A stretch of 30,701 nucleotides of DNA from a virus: positions 1 to 30,701 of IMG/VR virus record IMGVR_UViG_3300050138_000040; one strand, written 5' to 3'. Numbering within the stretch: the stretch's first letter is position 1; every line of letters begins with the position of its first letter. A program made the translations under genes and the position numbers. Below the pieces are notes generated by a model. It made no database searches. It was not told the origin of the DNA and saw nothing but the letters and a program-made list of their open reading frames with translations. Below, one piece after another: positions 1 through 14,662 of the stretch.

Positions 1-1
1 C

Positions 2-835
2 GCCGGCGCTGCCGGGGTGACGATCGGCCGCTTTGCCTGGTGGAGCGCATTAGCGCTCGATCCGGATGGCGCACCCATCCTCGTCAACAACTTCGGCGCA
101 GGTCCGGTCACCGGCTTCGTGCACCGTGAACAGCAAGGCCTGATCACGACGTACCTCGCGGATGCCAGCATGGTGATCCCGCAGGGCTTCGGCATGACGC
201 TGATGTCCGGCGGCAGCTTCTGGGTCAAGAATGACGGCCTCACCGAGGCGCTCGTCGGCCAGAAGGCTTACGCGAATTTCGCCGATGGCAAGGTGTCCTT
301 CGCGGCCACGGGTTCGCCTCTCGGCGCAACGTCATCGGCAGGCTCTATCGCCGCCAATACCGCAGCCGTCACTGGCTCGATTGCCGGAGACATTCTCACG
401 GTTACCGCGGTCGGTTCCGGCGTGCTCGTCCCTGGAGGCATTCTCTCGGGCACCGGCGTCGCAGCCGGCACCCAGATCCTGTCGCAGCTCACCGGTGCCG
501 CGGGCGGCATCGGCACATACGTCGTCAGCATCCCTGAGCAGGCTGTTGCCTCGACGGCGATTGCCGAGACCTACGGCACATTCACGGCCGGCGGCACGCT
601 CGTCGGAGTGTTCGGGATTGGCGACGTCCTGTCCGGCAGCGGCGTCACCGCCGGCACGACCATTACGGCGCTGGGCACGGGAACGGGCGGCGCCGGGACG
701 TACATCGTCCAGACGACGCAAACCGCTTCCAGCACTGCGATCACGGTCGGGACGGACGTCGAGACCAAGTACGTCGCGATGTCTGCCGGGCTTCCCGGCG
801 AGCTCGTCAAGATCAGCAGCCACCTGCTCGGCTAA
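2..835 (+). CDS. Structural cement (capsid decoration) protein, Gp24-like, 5' partial
   Basis: Decoration protein that would stabilise the capsid lattice from outside. The frame is open to the left edge. A GTG at 17 exists, but it falls inside the conserved core (V-TIGRFAWW), so the true start is upstream and the protein is truncated here. Recognisable family motifs are [20 protein letters not shown] (about residues 32-51 counted from the GTG), MVIPQGF and FWVKNDG, then the closing block [20 protein letters not shown] (about 249-269). Between core and closing block lie two tandem Gly/Thr/Ala-rich repeats. It lies directly before the major capsid gene, as cement genes usually do. The family call rests on motif recognition and position. 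Confidence 0.85.
371..751 (+). repeat. Two tandem beta-rich repeats inside the cement protein
   Basis: Residues about 119-185 and 190-245 (counted from the GTG at 17) share the pattern LSG-x-GV-x-AGT-x-I...TG-x-GG-x-GTY-x-V...Q...ST-x-I. Copy 1 shows [12 protein letters not shown] and GTYVV; copy 2 shows [12 protein letters not shown] and GTYIV. Such Gly/Thr-rich repeats are common as surface add-ons of phage structural proteins. A surface-exposed role is inferred. Confidence 0.75.
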
Positions 836-898
836 ACGGCGGCCATCCCCCAACCCGTGCTCGGCTGAAAGCGCCGGCGACAAGCGGAGTGAACCTCG

Positions 899-1987
899 AT
901 GAATCTTCAAGAAGCAATGGCCGCCTGGAATGCCGACAAGGCGCACCTGGCGGCGCGCGGCGCAGTCCTCGACGACGTGAGGGCGTACATTCCAGAGGAG
1001 TTCAAGCGGGACTTTCGCCTCGCGATGGACGCCCAGCCGACGCTGACGACCGACCCGAACTCGGCGGTGCCGGCGTTCCTCACCACGATGATCGACCCGG
1101 CCGTGTTCAGGATCCTGTTCGCCCCTAACAGGGCGGCGATCATCCTCGGTGAAGTCCGCAAGGGCACGTGGCTCGACCAAACGGCGATGTTCCCGGTCGT
1201 CGAGCATACCGGCGAGGTATCGAGCTACGGCGACTTTGCCGAGAACGGCCATGCCGGCGTCAACACCAACTGGCCACAGCGTCAGTCCTATCTGTTCCAG
1301 ACCGTCAAGGAATACGGCGAGCTGGAGCTCGAGCGGGCTGGGCTTGCCCGCATCAATTGGGTTTCGGAGATCGACCAGGCTGCGGCCACCGTCCTCAACA
1401 AGTTCTCCAACCTCACCTACTTCTTCGGAGTGGCCGGCTTGCAGAACTACGGTCTGCTCAACGATCCGAACCTGTCGGCGGCGCTCACTCCGGCGACCAA
1501 GGCGGCGGGTGGTGTGAAGTGGGTCAGCAACGGCGTGATCGTCGCCACGGCGAACGAAATCTATGCCGACATCCAGTCGCTATACATTCAGCTGATCACC
1601 CAGACTGCCGGTCTGGTCGAGGCCGATAGCAAGATGGTCCTCGCCATGTCGCCGGCATCGGCCGCGGCTCTGACCGCGACGAATACCTTCAACGTCAATG
1701 TCGCCGATCTCTTGAAGAAGAACTTCCCGAACATCCGGATCGAGACGGCAGTTCAGTATGGCGCTCTCTCGGCGTCTAACCCGCAGGGAATCGCCGCCGG
1801 CAACGAGATCCAACTGATCGCCGAGAACATCGAAGGTCAGGCGACCGGCTACGCGGCGTTCAACGAAAAGATGCGCTCGCATCCGATCATCCGCGCCATG
1901 TCGTCCTTCAAGCAGAAGCTGACGGCCGGCACCTGGGGAGCGATCCTTCGCATGCCTGTGGCTATCGCCCAGATGGTGGGCGTCTAG
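899..1987 (+). CDS. Major capsid protein, DUF2184 family
   Basis: Forms the icosahedral head shell. The 362-residue product shows the pattern of the DUF2184 major capsid family: an acidic N-terminal arm (LDDVRAYIPEEFKRDFRLAM), then PAFLTTMIDPAVFRILFAPN, the E-loop-like stretch WLDQTAMFPVVEHTGEVSSYGDF, YGELELERAGLARINWVSEI and a C-terminal SHPIIRAMSSFKQKLTAGTWG block. The ATG at 899 has a GGAG-like site about 8 bases upstream. The length is usual for the family and no separate scaffold or protease follows. It sits directly after the cement gene, which strengthens the assignment. Confidence 0.92.
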   Translation: MNLQEAMAAWNADKAHLAARGAVLDDVRAYIPEEFKRDFRLAMDAQPTLTTDPNSAVPAFLTTMIDPAVFRILFAPNRAAIILGEVRKGTWLDQTAMFPVVEHTGEVSSYGDFAENGHAGVNTNWPQRQSYLFQTVKEYGELELERAGLARINWVSEIDQAAATVLNKFSNLTYFFGVAGLQNYGLLNDPNLSAALTPATKAAGGVKWVSNGVIVATANEIYADIQSLYIQLITQTAGLVEADSKMVLAMSPASAAALTATNTFNVNVADLLKKNFPNIRIETAVQYGALSASNPQGIAAGNEIQLIAENIEGQATGYAAFNEKMRSHPIIRAMSSFKQKLTAGTWGAILRMPVAIAQMVGV

Positions 1988-2051
1988 CCCCTCAAGGCCT
2001 CTCGTCAGAGGCTGTTCTTCCAAGCCAATCAACTTATCGGAGCGCTCCTTG

Positions 2052-2468
2052 ATGTCGACGGTCACCGTTGCCTGCAAACTCCCCCATGGCCTGTTTCTTC
2101 GGCTGTTCAAGATGGTGGAATATTCGGAGCCCGTCATGGGCGGCGGCTCCAAGATGGTCCCGCGAGCGGAACAGATCGGCGGGGCGGTCACCATCCATGG
2201 CTACGCAGCCCCGTTCGGCAAGCCGCCGGTAGCGCAGGTGGTCGGTGGCTATGCGCTGACGCCCAACGTCGATGCGGACTTCTTCGCCGAGTGGCTGAAG
2301 CAGAACGCAGACCACGACGTGGTCAGGAACAACCTGATCTTCGCCAATGAGAAGCCGGAATCGGTTCACGGCAAGGCGAAGGGACGCGAGAGCATCCGCA
2401 ACGGGCTTGAGCCGATCGATCCGAACAAGCTGCCGAAGGGCATCGAGTCTGCCAAGGCGGCGGCTTAG
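2052..2468 (+). CDS. Conserved phage protein next to the capsid gene
   Basis: A 138-residue soluble protein. The ATG at 2052 is preferred over the adjacent TTG at 2049, with a CGGAG site just upstream. The N-terminus (TVTVACKLPHGL-x-LRLF) resembles a small protein I have seen in this position in other myovirus-like genomes. The middle (GGYALTPNVDADFFAEWLKQN) and C-terminus (IDPNKLPKGIESAKAAA) look like a compact domain with a lysine-rich tail. There is no signal peptide or membrane segment. Its position after the major capsid gene suggests a minor head or connector role, but no function can be assigned from sequence. Confidence 0.8.
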   Translation: MSTVTVACKLPHGLFLRLFKMVEYSEPVMGGGSKMVPRAEQIGGAVTIHGYAAPFGKPPVAQVVGGYALTPNVDADFFAEWLKQNADHDVVRNNLIFANEKPESVHGKAKGRESIRNGLEPIDPNKLPKGIESAKAAA

Positions 2469-2517
2469 CCGCCGGCCAGCGATCCTGCCGACAAAACTCA
2501 CAACAAGGAATTCCGCC

Positions 2518-3258
2518 ATGAAGTCCTTTCTTTCCCGCGCCATCGTCGCGGCCGCGCTGCTGTTCCCGTCGATCGCGTTGGCGCAGACCACGTTTGAGGA
2601 TCAGCTGCCGATTCCGCTTAGCAGCACCAACGGCCAATCGGAGCTGTTGACGCAGAGCATCAGTGTCAGCGGCGGGACGCTCTACCTCACCACGCTGCGT
2701 CAGCCGGGCATACAGGGGCAACCTGCCGGCGTGGCTCAGACATTCGTTCCGGTGGCGGCTGGCGGCCTCGTCCGTTATGTGCGTCTGACTGACGCCAAGA
2801 GCGACCTCGGCGTGCCGATGACGGCCGCGGCGGGCACGCCGTCGGGCACGGTGGGTGTTTCGCGCACCGCCGGCACCAGCCTGGCGCTCACCGGTGAAGC
2901 GACGTCCGGAGCAGCCGCCAAGACCGATAAGGCGCTCTTCGAGTTCAATTTACCTGACACCTACGTGGCCGGTGCCAACATTCCGGTGACGGTCAATTGC
3001 ACGACGAGCGGAACTACGATCACCGCCGCCAGCACCACGATGACGGTGGCGGCCTATACCGAGGTCAACGGTGTTGAAACGGCGCTCACGGTGAGCGCGG
3101 CTCAGCAGATCCCGGCCACAGCCGCCAATCTTGTGTTCACCGTCACCGGCACTGCTCTCACGCCAGGGCAGCATGTCGTCGTCGAGCTGGTCATGCTGGT
3201 CACGACCTCGGCCGGCGCGGGCACCGGCACGATCAACGCCGTGTCCTATCAGGGGTGA
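2518..3258 (+). CDS. Exported Thr/Ala-rich protein of the structural region
   Basis: A 246-residue protein with a clear Sec-type signal peptide (MKSFLSRAIVAAALLFPSIALA-QTT). The mature part is Thr/Ser/Ala/Val-rich and probably beta-rich. The start is the ATG at 2518 with AAGGAA upstream; upstream in-frame codons overlap the previous gene and read as arginine-rich shadow sequence. I recognise no family. It is odd for a gene in a capsid-to-tail operon to encode an exported product. It could be a virion surface protein, a periplasmic or outer-membrane factor made during infection, or an accessory cargo gene. Confidence 0.75.
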   Translation: MKSFLSRAIVAAALLFPSIALAQTTFEDQLPIPLSSTNGQSELLTQSISVSGGTLYLTTLRQPGIQGQPAGVAQTFVPVAAGGLVRYVRLTDAKSDLGVPMTAAAGTPSGTVGVSRTAGTSLALTGEATSGAAAKTDKALFEFNLPDTYVAGANIPVTVNCTTSGTTITAASTTMTVAAYTEVNGVETALTVSAAQQIPATAANLVFTVTGTALTPGQHVVVELVMLVTTSAGAGTGTINAVSYQG

Positions 3259-3297
3259 TCATCGACTTTCGTCGATACGGGAGAGTGAGAAAACACC

Positions 3298-5625
3298 ATG
3301 CGAAATTGGTTGATGGCATGGTTGGCGCTATGCCTCGCGCTGCTCTTTGGCGGCGTCACTGCGTCTGCCGACCCGGGTGCACCGACCTATAGCAGCTGGC
3401 AATCGCTGGGCCGTCTGGCGACACCGATAACGGCAACATCGACTACAGCCGCGACGGCGCTGCCGACGGGTGGCCTCACCGCCCAAGTCTGCAATCAGGG
3501 CAGTGTAGACGCTTACGTGACGCTGGGGACGACCAGCGGCGTCACGACTGATGCAACGACTGGATCGTGGATCAAGAACGGCACCTGCACACCGTTCAAT
3601 CTTCGGCCGCTGCCGAACATCACGTACACCTACATCGCGGCGATCACCGCCAGCAGCACGACTACGTTGTACGTGGAAGTGGGTCTCGGCAACATCAGCC
3701 GCGCCGGCGGGACAAGCGGGGGCGGAGGCGCGGGTATCACGAGCCTTGCCCCCGGTAGTGCGAACATCATCCTCTCGCCGAACCCGATCACGGCGACGGG
3801 AACGATCGACTTCTCCACTACTCCGGCGCTCGGCGCTGTCACCGCGACCTCTATCAACAAGGTTGCGCTGACCGCGCCGGCGACGGGTGCGACGCTGGCT
3901 CTGGTCGATGGCACTACGATCACCGGCCCGAGCGCGACGACGACGCTGCCGGGCCTCTCGCTGCCGAACGTCTTTAGTTCAGCCGTTCAGACTGTCCAAG
4001 GGCTCACCACAACATCATCTGGCTGGTATGCACAGATTACTGGAGACACATTTGCGCGTGTCCGCATTGGTCTCAACGGCAATGACATCGCCTCCCTCGC
4101 AATGGGCTCTGGGTCGGGCGCCAGAGACACATTCATCGAGCGGGCTGCCGCTGCGAACGTGCGCTTTGGTGCTCCAGACGCTGCGGCTCCTGTAGCGCAG
4201 ATCGAGTCCGTTCAGAACGTCGTCGCAGGCACCAGCAACGTCGCCGGAGCAGACCGGACACTCACACTCTCGCAGGGCACCGGGACCGGGGTAGGCGGCA
4301 AGCTGCTCGTCCAGGGCGCTCCTGCGGGTACGACGGGAACGGCGCAGAACGCTCTCGCCACGCTGGCCTCGTTCAACAATGTAGCCTCGGCGTTTCTACT
4401 TACCCCCGCCGTCAACACCAACGCGCTGGCCGTGACCGGATACTCGCTGACCGGGACCGACACGCACTCGCTGATGGATTTGGCGGGGACGTGGAATGTC
4501 GGGACTACAGTTGAGACAGCACTCAAGCTGAACGTGACCGACACGGCGAGCGGGGCAGCGTCGTTGCTGGCGGACTTGCAGGTTGGTGGAAGCTCGGTTG
4601 CACAAATTACTAAGACTGGCGCGCTAAACATCGTCGGAAATTCTAACGGCCAAACCCTTCTCACGACCAGATTTGGCAAGTTGTATTTCGGTGGTGGCCC
4701 ATCAGCAGGAGACACTTCTCAGTCCGCTTGGTTTTTGGACGCGAGTGCCACCATTTTTGCAGGAAGATCAACGGCGACGATTGGGTGGACTTCTAGCACG
4801 ACTAATGCAGCAGGAACTCTTGATCTCTCCATCTTCCGCGACGCCGCCAACACCCTAGCCCAGCGCAACGGGGTGAATGCGCAGAAGTTTCGTGTCTATG
4901 GAACCTTCACCGACGCCAGCAACGGCGACTGGCTGGAGTTCACCAAGGCAGCGGGTGGTCTGGCTTCGATTGCGACGGTCGCCAACGGTACTGGTACTGC
5001 TGGAAATCTGTCTCTAACTGCTGGAACTGTGACTGCGAGTGCTATTTTAACGGCAGTTGGAGCTATCAGCAGCGGCGGTCAAATTACTGCCGTTACTAAC
5101 TTTCAGGCAGGGGCGGCAGGACAGATTTATTTTCTTAATAGAACGACACTTAGTTCACCGTCCGACGGGGTGTTGCTTGCCTTTAATTTTGCAGGCACCG
5201 ATTTCAACCGCCTCCAGTTCGGTGGCACTACATCGTCATTCCCCGCCCTCAAGCGTAACGCGGCGAATCTGGAAGTCCGGCTGGCGGACGATAGCGCGCC
5301 CACGTCTGCAATCGCACGGTCGTTGATTTCATCCGGCGCGGTTCCCACGGTAGTCCTCGCCGGTGGTACCTGTGCCGGGACCGTGATCGCGGGCGGCTCT
5401 ACGGCCGGAACGGTCACGCTGACAGGGGCCTGCGTTACAACTAACACAATGACGCTCAGTGTCATGCCGACTGCCCCGACTGGATATTCCTGCGACGCGG
5501 TTGACCGCACGCTCGGCGTTAGCGACTTGGGCGAAACCTCAACTTCGACGACTGGAGCAGTGTTTACATTCGGGAGCACGACTGGCGCGACCGACGTGAT
5601 CCAATACAAGTGCATCGCGTACTAG
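3298..5625 (+). CDS. Large exported fibre-like protein
   Basis: A 775-residue Gly/Ala/Ser/Thr-rich protein with an N-terminal signal peptide (MRNWLMAWLALCLALLFGGVTASA). After a small N-terminal domain comes a Gly-rich linker (about 139-145), then a long low-complexity beta-type region typical of phage fibres (ITSLAPGSANIILSPNPITA, TLSQGTGTGVGGKLLVQGAP). A C-terminal domain has several cysteines (TCAGTVIAGG, GACVTT, GYSCDAVDR, YKCIAY). About nucleotides 4620-5200 are visibly more AT-rich than the surroundings, suggesting an exchanged module. The start is the ATG at 3298. Location before the neck genes, far from the other fibres, is unusual. A host-binding or surface-decoration role is inferred from composition only. 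Confidence 0.75.
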   Translation: MRNWLMAWLALCLALLFGGVTASADPGAPTYSSWQSLGRLATPITATSTTAATALPTGGLTAQVCNQGSVDAYVTLGTTSGVTTDATTGSWIKNGTCTPFNLRPLPNITYTYIAAITASSTTTLYVEVGLGNISRAGGTSGGGGAGITSLAPGSANIILSPNPITATGTIDFSTTPALGAVTATSINKVALTAPATGATLALVDGTTITGPSATTTLPGLSLPNVFSSAVQTVQGLTTTSSGWYAQITGDTFARVRIGLNGNDIASLAMGSGSGARDTFIERAAAANVRFGAPDAAAPVAQIESVQNVVAGTSNVAGADRTLTLSQGTGTGVGGKLLVQGAPAGTTGTAQNALATLASFNNVASAFLLTPAVNTNALAVTGYSLTGTDTHSLMDLAGTWNVGTTVETALKLNVTDTASGAASLLADLQVGGSSVAQITKTGALNIVGNSNGQTLLTTRFGKLYFGGGPSAGDTSQSAWFLDASATIFAGRSTATIGWTSSTTNAAGTLDLSIFRDAANTLAQRNGVNAQKFRVYGTFTDASNGDWLEFTKAAGGLASIATVANGTGTAGNLSLTAGTVTASAILTAVGAISSGGQITAVTNFQAGAAGQIYFLNRTTLSSPSDGVLLAFNFAGTDFNRLQFGGTTSSFPALKRNAANLEVRLADDSAPTSAIARSLISSGAVPTVVLAGGTCAGTVIAGGSTAGTVTLTGACVTTNTMTLSVMPTAPTGYSCDAVDRTLGVSDLGETSTSTTGAVFTFGSTTGATDVIQYKCIAY

Positions 5626-7770: not shown

Positions 7771-8391
7771 ATGAACGACTCCAGCACTGGCGGTCCGCTC
7801 GCGCCGATCGGCGGCGGACCGGCGCCACTCGAGGGGCTCGCGCTCAACAACTTCCTGCAGGGTTGGATCGTCGGCATCACAGGCCTCGCTGGTGCCATGG
7901 TGCGGCCGCGCTGGCAACCAGAGCCAGCGAATATCCCGACAGAGGGCAACGCCTGGGCGGCAATCGGCGTCCAGGTCCGGCCAGCCGATACATTCCCGCT
8001 CGTGCTCCACAACGCCAGTGCCAACGGTGGCAATGGTCAGGATGAGGTCCACCAACACGAGGACCTCGACATCCTGGTGAGCTTCTACGACCTCGGCACG
8101 AATGGGCAGGCCGATGCCTATGCCGCGATCCTGCGCCAAGGCGTGGCGATCGATCAGAACCTCGAGCTGCTGACCGACAACGGCATGGGGCTGATCGCCT
8201 GCGGTGAACCGATCCCCCTGCCTTCGTTGCTCAAGCAGAGGTGGCTCTACCGCGTGGATCTCGCCATCCAGGTCAAGCGCGAGATCATTCGAGCCTATCC
8301 GGTGCTGAACCTCGTAACCGCCGCCGCGACGCTCAAGGCCGAGAACGCCGGCGGCCATCTCCTCGTCGATACCCTCGCGATCCATCAATGA
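7771..8391 (+). CDS. Phage neck terminator, gp12-like
   Basis: A 206-residue protein with the pattern of the neck terminator (gp12-like) family: LNNFLQGWIVGITGLAGAMVRPRWQPEP near the N-terminus, AAIGVQVRPADTFP, then HEDLDILVSFYDLGTNGQADAYAAILRQGVAIDQN and a C-terminal RWLYRVDLAIQVKREI strand. This protein ends the tail tube at the head side in contractile tails. It lies directly before the sheath gene, which is where it is expected. The ATG at 7771 is the only reasonable start. Confidence 0.82.
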   Translation: MNDSSTGGPLAPIGGGPAPLEGLALNNFLQGWIVGITGLAGAMVRPRWQPEPANIPTEGNAWAAIGVQVRPADTFPLVLHNASANGGNGQDEVHQHEDLDILVSFYDLGTNGQADAYAAILRQGVAIDQNLELLTDNGMGLIACGEPIPLPSLLKQRWLYRVDLAIQVKREIIRAYPVLNLVTAAATLKAENAGGHLLVDTLAIHQ

Positions 8392-11075: not shown

Positions 11076-12746
11076 GTGGCTTCCGCCGGCACTTTGCGTG
11101 AGTTCCTGATTGCGCTTGGATTTTCCGTGGACCAGCCGGGGCTGGCGAAGTTCGAGACCAGCATCGGACGGGCCACCAAGTCGGCGGTCGGACTGGGCGA
11201 GGCGGTCTTCGCCACGGCTGCTGCGATCGAGATCGCGGTTGTACGCATCGGGCGCCAATTCGAGGACTTGTACTATCTCTCGCAACGCACCGGAGCATCG
11301 GTCGCGGCGTTGCAGGCATGGCAGTACGGCGCCCAGCAAGTCGGTATTGCTGCTGATGCCAGCCGCAGCGCCATCGACAGTTTCGCCCGCTCCCTGCGCA
11401 ACCAGCCGGGCAACGTCGGACTGCTGCACCTGCTCGGAGTTCAGACGCAGGGTCGCACCACCGACCAGATGTTCAACGATCTCGTCGATAGGCTCGCAAA
11501 GTTGAAGCCGTACATTGCGGCACTCCGTGCCCAGCAGTTCGGGCAAGACCCAGATACGATGTACCAGCTGGAACTGAATCGTGGTGTGGACCGGGCGGCA
11601 CAGGCTGACATCAGCAAGCGTCAGAGTGCGGCGGGATTTGATCCCGATAAGTGGTCTAAGTCGTCGGTCGACTTTGTACGCGACCTCAACAAATTGGAGT
11701 CGGAGTTCGGCATCCTCGCCGATCGCATCGGCCGAGATTTCATGCCATGGGCCGACAAGTTCGTGAACTGGCTCGATGGTGTAGTGCAGATTTTCAACAA
11801 CTGGGACAACACCGTCGGCGATTGGGCCAGCTGGGTAGGGACGATCGCGACCACGGCGATGGGTGCATGGATCGCGAAAGCGTTCCTGATGCGCACCGCC
11901 GCTCTGGGTCTGTCTGCTGGACTGGCGGGAGTCGCATCGTCTGTCTTGGGCATTGCCGCGCTGGGCGGTGCGGGAGCGGCGCTCCTCGCGACGATCTGGC
12001 CTCAGCAGGCAAACGCCGGCGAAGACGCGATCACCGCAGCCCGACATGGCGCGGCGGGCGGCAGTAGTGGAAATAATTCCGCGATTGTCCCCCGTGAACT
12101 CAGATACCAGCACGCACAAGAAGCCGTCGCTCGACTCCTCGCGACGATCTGGCCTCAGCAGGCAAACGCCGGCGAAGACGCGATCACCGCAGCCCGACAT
12201 GGCGCGGCGGGCGGCAGTAGTGGAAATAATCCCGGAAATATGCGCCCCCCCGGTGCGAGCACTGGTTACCAGAAGTTCCCGACAATGCTGTCGGGCCTTT
12301 CCGAGATGGCTCGACAACTGCTCGTTTATGGCGATCGCGGTCTAACCTCGGTCAGTTCAATCGTCAGCAAGTGGGCTCCGCCCAGGGAGAACAACACCGC
12401 CGCATACATCGCCGATGTCTCGGCGCGCACTGGCTTCTCCGCTGACCAGCAACTCAACCTACGCGACCCGACCACACTCCAGCGACTGATGGACGCGATG
12501 ATCCGCCACGAGACCGGGAAGCGCGGGGACCCCGCCATAGAGATGGCCGCGATCAACGCGCGTCTTGGTCTGCCGAATGTCGCCCTTGCTCCCGGTGGGT
12601 CGGGCGGCGGCGTAACCATCAATCAAAAGACTGACATCGTCGTCAGCGGGGTGAGCGATCCGAAAGCCGCGGGCGCCGCAGTGCTGGCCGGCCAGGCGCG
12701 CACCAACGCTAACATCGTTCGCAACCTGGCCGGCGTCATTCGGTAA
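11076..12746 (+). CDS. Tail tape measure protein with C-terminal NPGN-type domain
   Basis: Sets tail length and lies inside the tube. The start is the GTG at 11076, four bases after the preceding stop; the product is 556 residues, short for this role, suggesting a short tail. The N-terminal half is helical (LREFLIALGFSVDQPGLAKFE, QFEDLYYLSQRTGASVAALQAW). Residues about 248-308 are hydrophobic. A 32-residue segment is present twice (303-334 and 354-385), separated by 19 residues. The C-terminal region (from NNPGNMRPPGAS, about 384, to IRHETG) matches a domain seen at the ends of phage virion proteins, marked by NPGN-x-R, MARQLL-x-Y-x-x-RGL and SKWAPP-x-ENNT-x-AYI. It may act on peptidoglycan during DNA entry. 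Confidence 0.82.
   Translation: MASAGTLREFLIALGFSVDQPGLAKFETSIGRATKSAVGLGEAVFATAAAIEIAVVRIGRQFEDLYYLSQRTGASVAALQAWQYGAQQVGIAADASRSAIDSFARSLRNQPGNVGLLHLLGVQTQGRTTDQMFNDLVDRLAKLKPYIAALRAQQFGQDPDTMYQLELNRGVDRAAQADISKRQSAAGFDPDKWSKSSVDFVRDLNKLESEFGILADRIGRDFMPWADKFVNWLDGVVQIFNNWDNTVGDWASWVGTIATTAMGAWIAKAFLMRTAALGLSAGLAGVASSVLGIAALGGAGAALLATIWPQQANAGEDAITAARHGAAGGSSGNNSAIVPRELRYQHAQEAVARLLATIWPQQANAGEDAITAARHGAAGGSSGNNPGNMRPPGASTGYQKFPTMLSGLSEMARQLLVYGDRGLTSVSSIVSKWAPPRENNTAAYIADVSARTGFSADQQLNLRDPTTLQRLMDAMIRHETGKRGDPAIEMAAINARLGLPNVALAPGGSGGGVTINQKTDIVVSGVSDPKAAGAAVLAGQARTNANIVRNLAGVIR
11982..12077 (+). repeat. 96-bp direct repeat, copy 1 (in tape measure gene)
   Basis: Identical over 96 bases to 12135-12230, offset 153 bases (51 codons), so the frame is kept. 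It encodes residues 303-334 (starting LLATIWPQQANAGED). See the paired copy and the inverted segment between them. Confidence 0.95.
12077..12135 (+). repeat. 59-bp inverted copy of baseplate gene sequence between the direct repeats
   Basis: Reverse complement of 14527-14585 in the baseplate hub gene, matching at 56 of 59 positions. The only differences are three adjacent bases at 12116-12118. It fills exactly the gap between the two 96-bp copies, sharing one base with each. Confidence 0.92.
12135..12230 (+). repeat. 96-bp direct repeat, copy 2 (in tape measure gene)
   Basis: Second identical copy of 11982-12077. It continues directly into the NPGN domain, so copy 2 has the ancestral downstream junction and copy 1 the ancestral upstream junction. 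Confidence 0.95.
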
Positions 12747-13408: not shown

Positions 13409-13724
13409 CGCATTCGAAATCCCGACGTCGCCGACGCCGCAGAAGTTCTCGGTGTCGCTCTCCGGTGTCACACGTGAGCTGATGCTACATTGGGACGCCC
13501 CGGCCGCCTGCTGGATCATGGACATTGCCGATGATACCGGAACGCCGATCCTCTCCGGCATTCCGCTGATCACCGGCGCCGATCTGCTGGCGCAATATGC
13601 CTACGCCGGCCTCGCCGGCATCATGCTGGTGCAGACTGACCACGATCCGGACGCCGTGCCAACCTTCGCCAATCTGGGCACCGCCGGGCACCTCTTTTTC
13701 GCATCCACGGGTGCAGGCGCGTGA
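13401..13724 (+). CDS. Baseplate plug protein, Pam3 gp18-like
   Basis: A 107-residue protein starting at GTG 13401, overlapping the preceding gene by 8 bases. The family pattern is clear: KFSVSLSGVTRELMLHWDAPAACWIMDIAD, DDTGTPILSGIPLITGADLLAQYAYAGL and PTFANLGTAGHLFFAS. This is the baseplate plug family named from cyanophage Pam3, whose baseplate is minimal. It seals or fixes the centre of the hub. Its end overlaps the next start (GTGA). Confidence 0.82.
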   Translation: MASAFEIPTSPTPQKFSVSLSGVTRELMLHWDAPAACWIMDIADDTGTPILSGIPLITGADLLAQYAYAGLAGIMLVQTDHDPDAVPTFANLGTAGHLFFASTGAGA

Positions 13725-14662
13725 GTGACCAATATCTCAGAAAGTGGAGCCTGATCCTCACCGAGGGAAGCAAAGCGCTCGATCTGTCCGAGATGCATAT
13801 TCGGTTTAAGGTCAACCAGGCTGACAACACGGCCCCGAACACGGCGTCGATCCGCATTTACAATCTCGCCGACAGCACGGCACAGGCCATCCAGAAGGAA
13901 TACCAAAGCGTCGTCTTGCAGGCGGGCTACGAAACCGGGAATTTCGCGGTCATTTTTCAGGGCACGATCGCGCAGATCGTGCGAGGCCGCGAGAGTGCGC
14001 TCGACAGCTTCGTTGAGATACACGCCGCCGATGGTGATGAGGCGATCAATTTTGCCTGTGTCAGCAAGTCCTCTGCCGCAGCTGCGACGAGCAACGCCGA
14101 TCGGATCAAGGTCGCTACCGACGCGATGAAGCCCTACGGGGTCGATGTCGGCAACGTCGATCTCGGTGACGCTCCCGAGACTGGGGGCATACTGCCGAGG
14201 GGCAAGGTGTCGTTTGCTTTGGCGAGTCACCAGCTGGATGATGTCTGCGCCTCCACGGCGACGACGTGGAGTGTGCAGGGCGGGAAAATCGTAATCATCC
14301 CGCTGACGGGCTACCTTCCCGGCGAGGCGGTGGTGCTCTCGGCTCAGACCGGTTTGATCGGCATTCCCGAGGCGACCGTCGATGGTATCAACGTTCGCTG
14401 CCTCTTGAACCCTCTGATCCGCATCGGCGGCCGGGTACAGATCGACAACGCATCCATCAACCTGACTACTGTCAGGCAGCAATTTCTTTATCCGAACTAT
14501 AGCGACGCCAACATGATCGCGAACCCGTCGAGCGACGGCTTCTATCGCGTGCTGGTATCTGAGTTCACGGGGGACAATCGCGGAAACGAGTGGTATTCGG
14601 ATTTAGTATGCTTGGCGATCGACCCAAGTTCCGTCGCGAACAAGTCGGTGCAGGCGTATTAG
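13721..14662 (+). CDS. Baseplate hub protein
   Basis: A 313-residue protein starting at GTG 13721 (GTGA overlap). The N-terminus (RKWSLILTEG...LDLSEMHIRFKVNQADNTAPNTASIRIYNLADSTAQ) and VVLQAGYETGNFAVIFQGTIAQIVRGRESA are typical of gp27/gpD-like hub proteins of compact baseplates. A C-terminal strand block (NMIANPSSDGFYRVLVSEF...) includes the source of the inverted insert in the tape measure gene (14527-14585, residues about 269-288). The hub trimer holds the spike. Position before the spike gene, apart from the minus-strand pair, agrees. Confidence 0.8.
   Translation: MSDQYLRKWSLILTEGSKALDLSEMHIRFKVNQADNTAPNTASIRIYNLADSTAQAIQKEYQSVVLQAGYETGNFAVIFQGTIAQIVRGRESALDSFVEIHAADGDEAINFACVSKSSAAAATSNADRIKVATDAMKPYGVDVGNVDLGDAPETGGILPRGKVSFALASHQLDDVCASTATTWSVQGGKIVIIPLTGYLPGEAVVLSAQTGLIGIPEATVDGINVRCLLNPLIRIGGRVQIDNASINLTTVRQQFLYPNYSDANMIANPSSDGFYRVLVSEFTGDNRGNEWYSDLVCLAIDPSSVANKSVQAY
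14527..14585 (-). repeat. Source partner of the inverted segment in the tape measure gene
   Basis: Its reverse complement recurs at 12077-12135 with 56 of 59 matches. Here the sequence is embedded in normal coding sequence of the hub gene, so this copy is taken as the original. Confidence 0.9.

Follow-up and report, generated by a model that had tools for sequence, protein, structure and literature searches.

A duplication in a phage tape measure gene enclosing an inverted copy of hub gene sequence, best explained by template switching

The window, i.e., the whole stretch of DNA analysed here, corresponds to one IMG/VR virus record, and its 30,701 bases include no N and no end repeats. Pfam and PHROG matching of its ORFs assigns its structural genes to the contractile-tailed phage type: major head protein, neck, DUF3383 sheath, tail assembly chaperone, tape measure and Dit-like protein, together with plug, baseplate hub, baseplate wedge and J proteins, and fibres. 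A 775-aa ORF located amid the head genes (3298-5625) is matched by neither Pfam nor PHROG. None of the ORFs scanned in the window could be recognised as coding for a polymerase, recombinase or reverse transcriptase. Two of the genes are of concern here, and their identities, already proposed in the first-pass annotation, are supported by homologues, those of the tape measure being present both in phages and in IMG/VR contigs:

11076..12746, + strand: the recipient gene, encoding a tape measure protein of 556 aa; matched by PHROG 2276 'tail length tape measure protein' (E 4e-66)
13721..14662, + strand: the donor gene, encoding a baseplate hub protein of 313 aa; matched by PHROG 196 baseplate hub (E 6e-71) and by Pfam E217_GP41

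The scar in the tape measure gene comprises a direct duplication and, between its copies, an inverted piece of hub sequence, the donor being 2.4 kb away from the recipient site:

11982..12077, + strand: copy 1 of the 96-bp direct duplication, residues 303-334, LLATIWPQQANAGEDAITAARHGAAGGSSGNN; retains the original left flank; identical to 12135-12230
12078..12134, + strand: 57-nt inverted templated insert, residues 335-353, SAIVPRELRYQHAQEAVAR; reverse complement of 14528-14584
12116..12118, + strand: three adjacent substitutions within the insert relative to the hub donor, ACA for GAT; one residue change, Ile to Gln
12135..12230, + strand: copy 2 of the duplication, residues 354-385; runs on into the original right flank (...GNN|PGN), the NNPGN junction being conserved and single in relatives
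14527..14585, + strand: donor segment, copied as its reverse complement (56/59 match); encodes the conserved SSDGFYRVLVSEFTGDNRG
14525..14538, + strand: perfect 6-bp hairpin CCGTCG-AG-CGACGG at the donor end where copying would have stopped

The two 96-bp copies display zero differences, and their starts are 153 bp apart. Taken together with one shared base per side, the spacer (12077-12135) matches 14527-14585 in reverse complement at 56 of 59 positions (95%). The junction homology is thus 1 bp at either end; past the shared bases, the flanks of the donor and the target align at chance level. The added length of 153 bp corresponds to 51 codons, and the 556-aa frame (11076-12746) remains open. 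The first-pass annotation had claimed the identical copies, the 59-bp reverse complement with its adjacent mismatches, the in-frame addition of 153 bp and the sharing of a single base at the junctions, and all of these were borne out.

An inverted match of 59 nt at 95%, coming together with an exact repeat of 96 bp, lies far outside what chance would give. No second pair of this kind was found in the 30.7-kb window. A survey for exact 24-bp repeats and exact inverted 18-mers across 926 kb from related phages, in partly redundant loci built around related tail genes, turned up no spaced direct repeat of at least 24 bp. The sole exact inverted 18-mer pair across these 926 kb is at positions 8222 and 9692 of locus L080.

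The derived state of the tape measure gene is evident from the motif NNPGN, conserved at the opening of the C-terminal domain of tape measure proteins. Copy 2 runs into NNPGN, and copy 1 runs from NN into SAIVPREL. In 21 distinct related tape measures, NNPGN occurs once and without the repeated unit, and an alignment of 16 tape measures gave the same picture with a single NNPGN; hence, the single-copy form is ancestral. This comparison with related phages was made at the protein level, because no DNA-near relative was available: viral_contigs, genome_contigs and phages yielded none, whether carrying the insert or lacking it. Likewise, tape measure peptide patterns retrieved no relative from viral_contigs or genome_contigs, an exact 26-mer of the duplicated unit had no match, and sheath patterns had none in genome_contigs; since such searches may omit records of the window's own genome or very near ones, this absence of near relatives is not proof. 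The closest phage DNA to the window reaches 67-76% over short pieces. The nearest relative, L005 (positions 1-5494), is a mosaic: its sheath protein is 92% identical to that of the window and its tape measure 37%, the latter being another reason for relying on protein homologues.

In the sheath region, the DNA of the window and that of L005 differ by 16%, and the 96-bp copies are identical; therefore, either the event was recent or the copies have been homogenised. The identity of the copies and the uniqueness of the pair, both in the window and in the 926 kb, are as expected of a recent single event. The earlier suggestion of such an event is thus supported by the homologues and by the identical copies, with homogenisation as an alternative reading of the identity.

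The direction of copying can be deduced from the hub gene. Its segment SSDGFYRVLVSEFTGDNRG is a conserved stretch of the baseplate hub family, and the Tyr which the ACA of the insert would destroy in the hub sense is kept in 39 of 39 hub homologues (those in the fetched loci with a recognisable form of the motif). In addition, an exact 20-mer containing TATCGC is common to the hub donor and to an independent contig, L097. Therefore, the hub gene is the donor, as had been proposed initially, and it was in the tape measure copy that the three adjacent changes came about. Judging from this conservation, the hub version of the 12116-12118 site is the ancestral one. The changes amount to one replacement, so a single multi-nucleotide error would fit them better than three separate mutations; no k-mer of at least 10 nt spanning the cluster, i.e., no second template for it, was found elsewhere in the window.

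The best explanation for the scar, to which we would assign a probability of about 0.56, is one recent two-jump template-switching event in vivo, accompanied by a 3-nt error in the copied piece. According to this scenario, a nascent strand would have been extended rightwards along the tape measure gene as far as 12077 during phage replication or repair and then left its template. It would next have copied approximately 57 nt of the opposite-sense hub strand, running from 14585 to 14527 with a single 3-nt error, before rejoining the tape measure gene at 11982, 96 bp upstream of the exit point, and continuing. The product would be copy 1, the inverted hub piece and copy 2 in succession, i.e., an in-frame gain of 153 bp and 51 residues. 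Two of the hallmarks of template switching are present: the insert has an identifiable nearby template (56/59, 2.4 kb away), and the original template is regained, since copy 2 leads on into the right flank with its conserved NNPGN. The copying could have been stopped by stalling at the 14525-14538 hairpin, but this site is suggestive only, because such hairpins cover 4.9% of the window. The folding energy at the breakpoints is ordinary.

At the same time, the exact pathway is unproven, because 1-bp homology at both ends is at chance level: random junctions display a homology of 0 in 54% of cases, of 1 in 28% and of at least 1 in 46%. Two further points weigh against template switching: the collections named above yielded no near relative at the DNA level, and the scanned ORFs contained no recognisable polymerase, recombinase or reverse transcriptase. 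The junction homology does not favour microhomology-primed jumping over end joining in vivo, in which a staggered break with filled-in 96-nt overhangs would generate the duplication and a 57-bp hub fragment would be captured between the ends. The product of such a process is identical to the observed scar, and the chance-level junction homology fits it at least as well. Still, end joining would require a pair of nicks spaced by exactly 96 nt as well as a separate 57-bp fragment, and no Ku, ligase or related gene was recognised among the window ORFs scanned (a scan covering phage ORFs). Overall, we regard end joining as unlikely. The template-switch signature claimed in the first-pass annotation stands, therefore, as the best explanation but not as a unique one.

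The main rival of template switching, and the one named as the main alternative from the start, is a laboratory chimera: a displaced 3' end could have jumped twice during amplification (e.g., phi29 MDA) or library preparation, and the chimera could have entered the assembly. Chimeras formed during MDA are inverted in 85% of cases and mostly join segments less than 10 kb apart (PMC1855051), a pattern matched by the inverted join over 2.4 kb reported here. Moreover, the record is a metagenomic contig, and no independent contig with the junctions was found. On the other hand, complementarity of at least 2 bp is present in 93.5% of the inverted MDA chimeras joining segments less than 10 kb apart (PMC1855051), whereas both joins in the window share 1 bp, which lowers this rival without removing it. 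Unlike an MDA chimera, the scar combines two joins and a return with a frame that stays open and with three changed nucleotides in the copied piece; two jumps plus the return would have been required, and the chimeric molecule would have to be the consensus. The three adjacent changes would be unexpected from a high-fidelity polymerase, and variation of the donor is an unlikely source of them because the changed Tyr is conserved. Random inserts of such a type kept the frame open in 19.8% of trials, so being in frame and open by chance (0.198) gives a roughly five-fold factor in favour of a real, functional variant. To our knowledge, assemblers make no joins on 1-bp overlaps, and this was also counted against a chimera. 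All in all, a laboratory origin of the scar is not likely, although it deserves more weight than end joining.

The presence of a template and its altered copy a few kb apart, with clustered differences, also brings to mind a programmed element, such as a diversity-generating retroelement or an invertible cassette, using the hub segment as the template. A diversity-generating retroelement was ruled against, since the changes are not confined to template adenines (GAT to ACA; on the other strand, ATC to TGT) and none of the ORFs scanned was recognised as a reverse transcriptase. Furthermore, the recipient site lies between the copies of a direct duplication, and such a copy occurs in 0 of the 21 distinct related tape measures, making a programmed origin extremely improbable.

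Template switching of this sort has counterparts in known systems. The templated mutations of phage T4, as outlined in PMC3016281 (citing Schultz et al. 2006), arise by sequential strand switching, with copying elsewhere followed by a return; the likeness to the scar is that the polymerase copies a distant genome segment and then resumes the original template. T4 switches to an imperfect repeat of the target, whereas here the donor and the target had no prior similarity, their flanks aligning at chance; the copy in the window is also inverted, and the return point 96 bp upstream results in a duplication. Templated insertions of the MMBIR/FoSTeS type are similarly short, have an identifiable template and regain the original locus (PMC8421209). 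In lung adenocarcinoma, MMBIR-type insertions have 2-12 bp of homology at 80% of junctions (PMC8421209), as opposed to the chance-level 1 bp per junction seen here. Small inverted triplications (DUP/INV/DUP) resemble the scar in having direct duplications of about 100 bp around an inverted piece, but they take that piece from the very locus that is duplicated and have about 6 bp at their junctions (PMC13334657); the piece in the window comes from another gene 2.4 kb off (hub 14527-14585). The scar belongs to an already known class of mutation, met here in a new setting and rarely seen so fresh and clean.

In the tape measure protein, the added residues 303-353 come right after a hydrophobic stretch (hydropathy peak near residue 295) and ahead of the C-terminal domain. 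The AlphaFold model, at pLDDT 55 too poor to support a fold search, is of low confidence between residues 204 and 382 and places only a weak helix, 340-358, within the added part. Because of this low confidence, the region of the insertion is probably a linker that tolerates additions. A comparable part of a related tape measure, the Ala/Gly-rich part encoded in L007, harbours a 48-bp in-frame tandem duplication (11345-11448; two overlapping 56-bp exact copies), and the related protein of L008 has no repeated 12-mer.

The helical rise is 0.15 nm per residue; if fully helical, the 51 residues would add at most ~7.7 nm. In the lactococcal phage TP901-1, tail length tracks the length of the tape measure (PMC5099701). 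The full account, in which a real and very recent template-switch event added the 51 residues (partly antisense hub) and the longer form became the consensus by way of a tail longer by no more than ~7.7 nm, seems distinctly unlikely. If real, the scar would be a clean, fresh case of a phage structural protein gaining residues in one step from a gene copied backwards. It would also offer a natural single-gene test of whether linker residues outside the folded domains lengthen a contractile tail. Given its 96-bp direct copies, this form should be unstable, so mixed populations could be used to measure the rate of reversion.

Other repeats are found in the vicinity and in the related loci. The tape measure gene itself contains, ~48 bp past copy 2, the perfect inverted repeat CCCGACA-ATGC-TGTCGGG (12278-12295), and in L013 (167-249) an exact 38-bp sequence recurs in direct orientation at a spacing of 45 bp.
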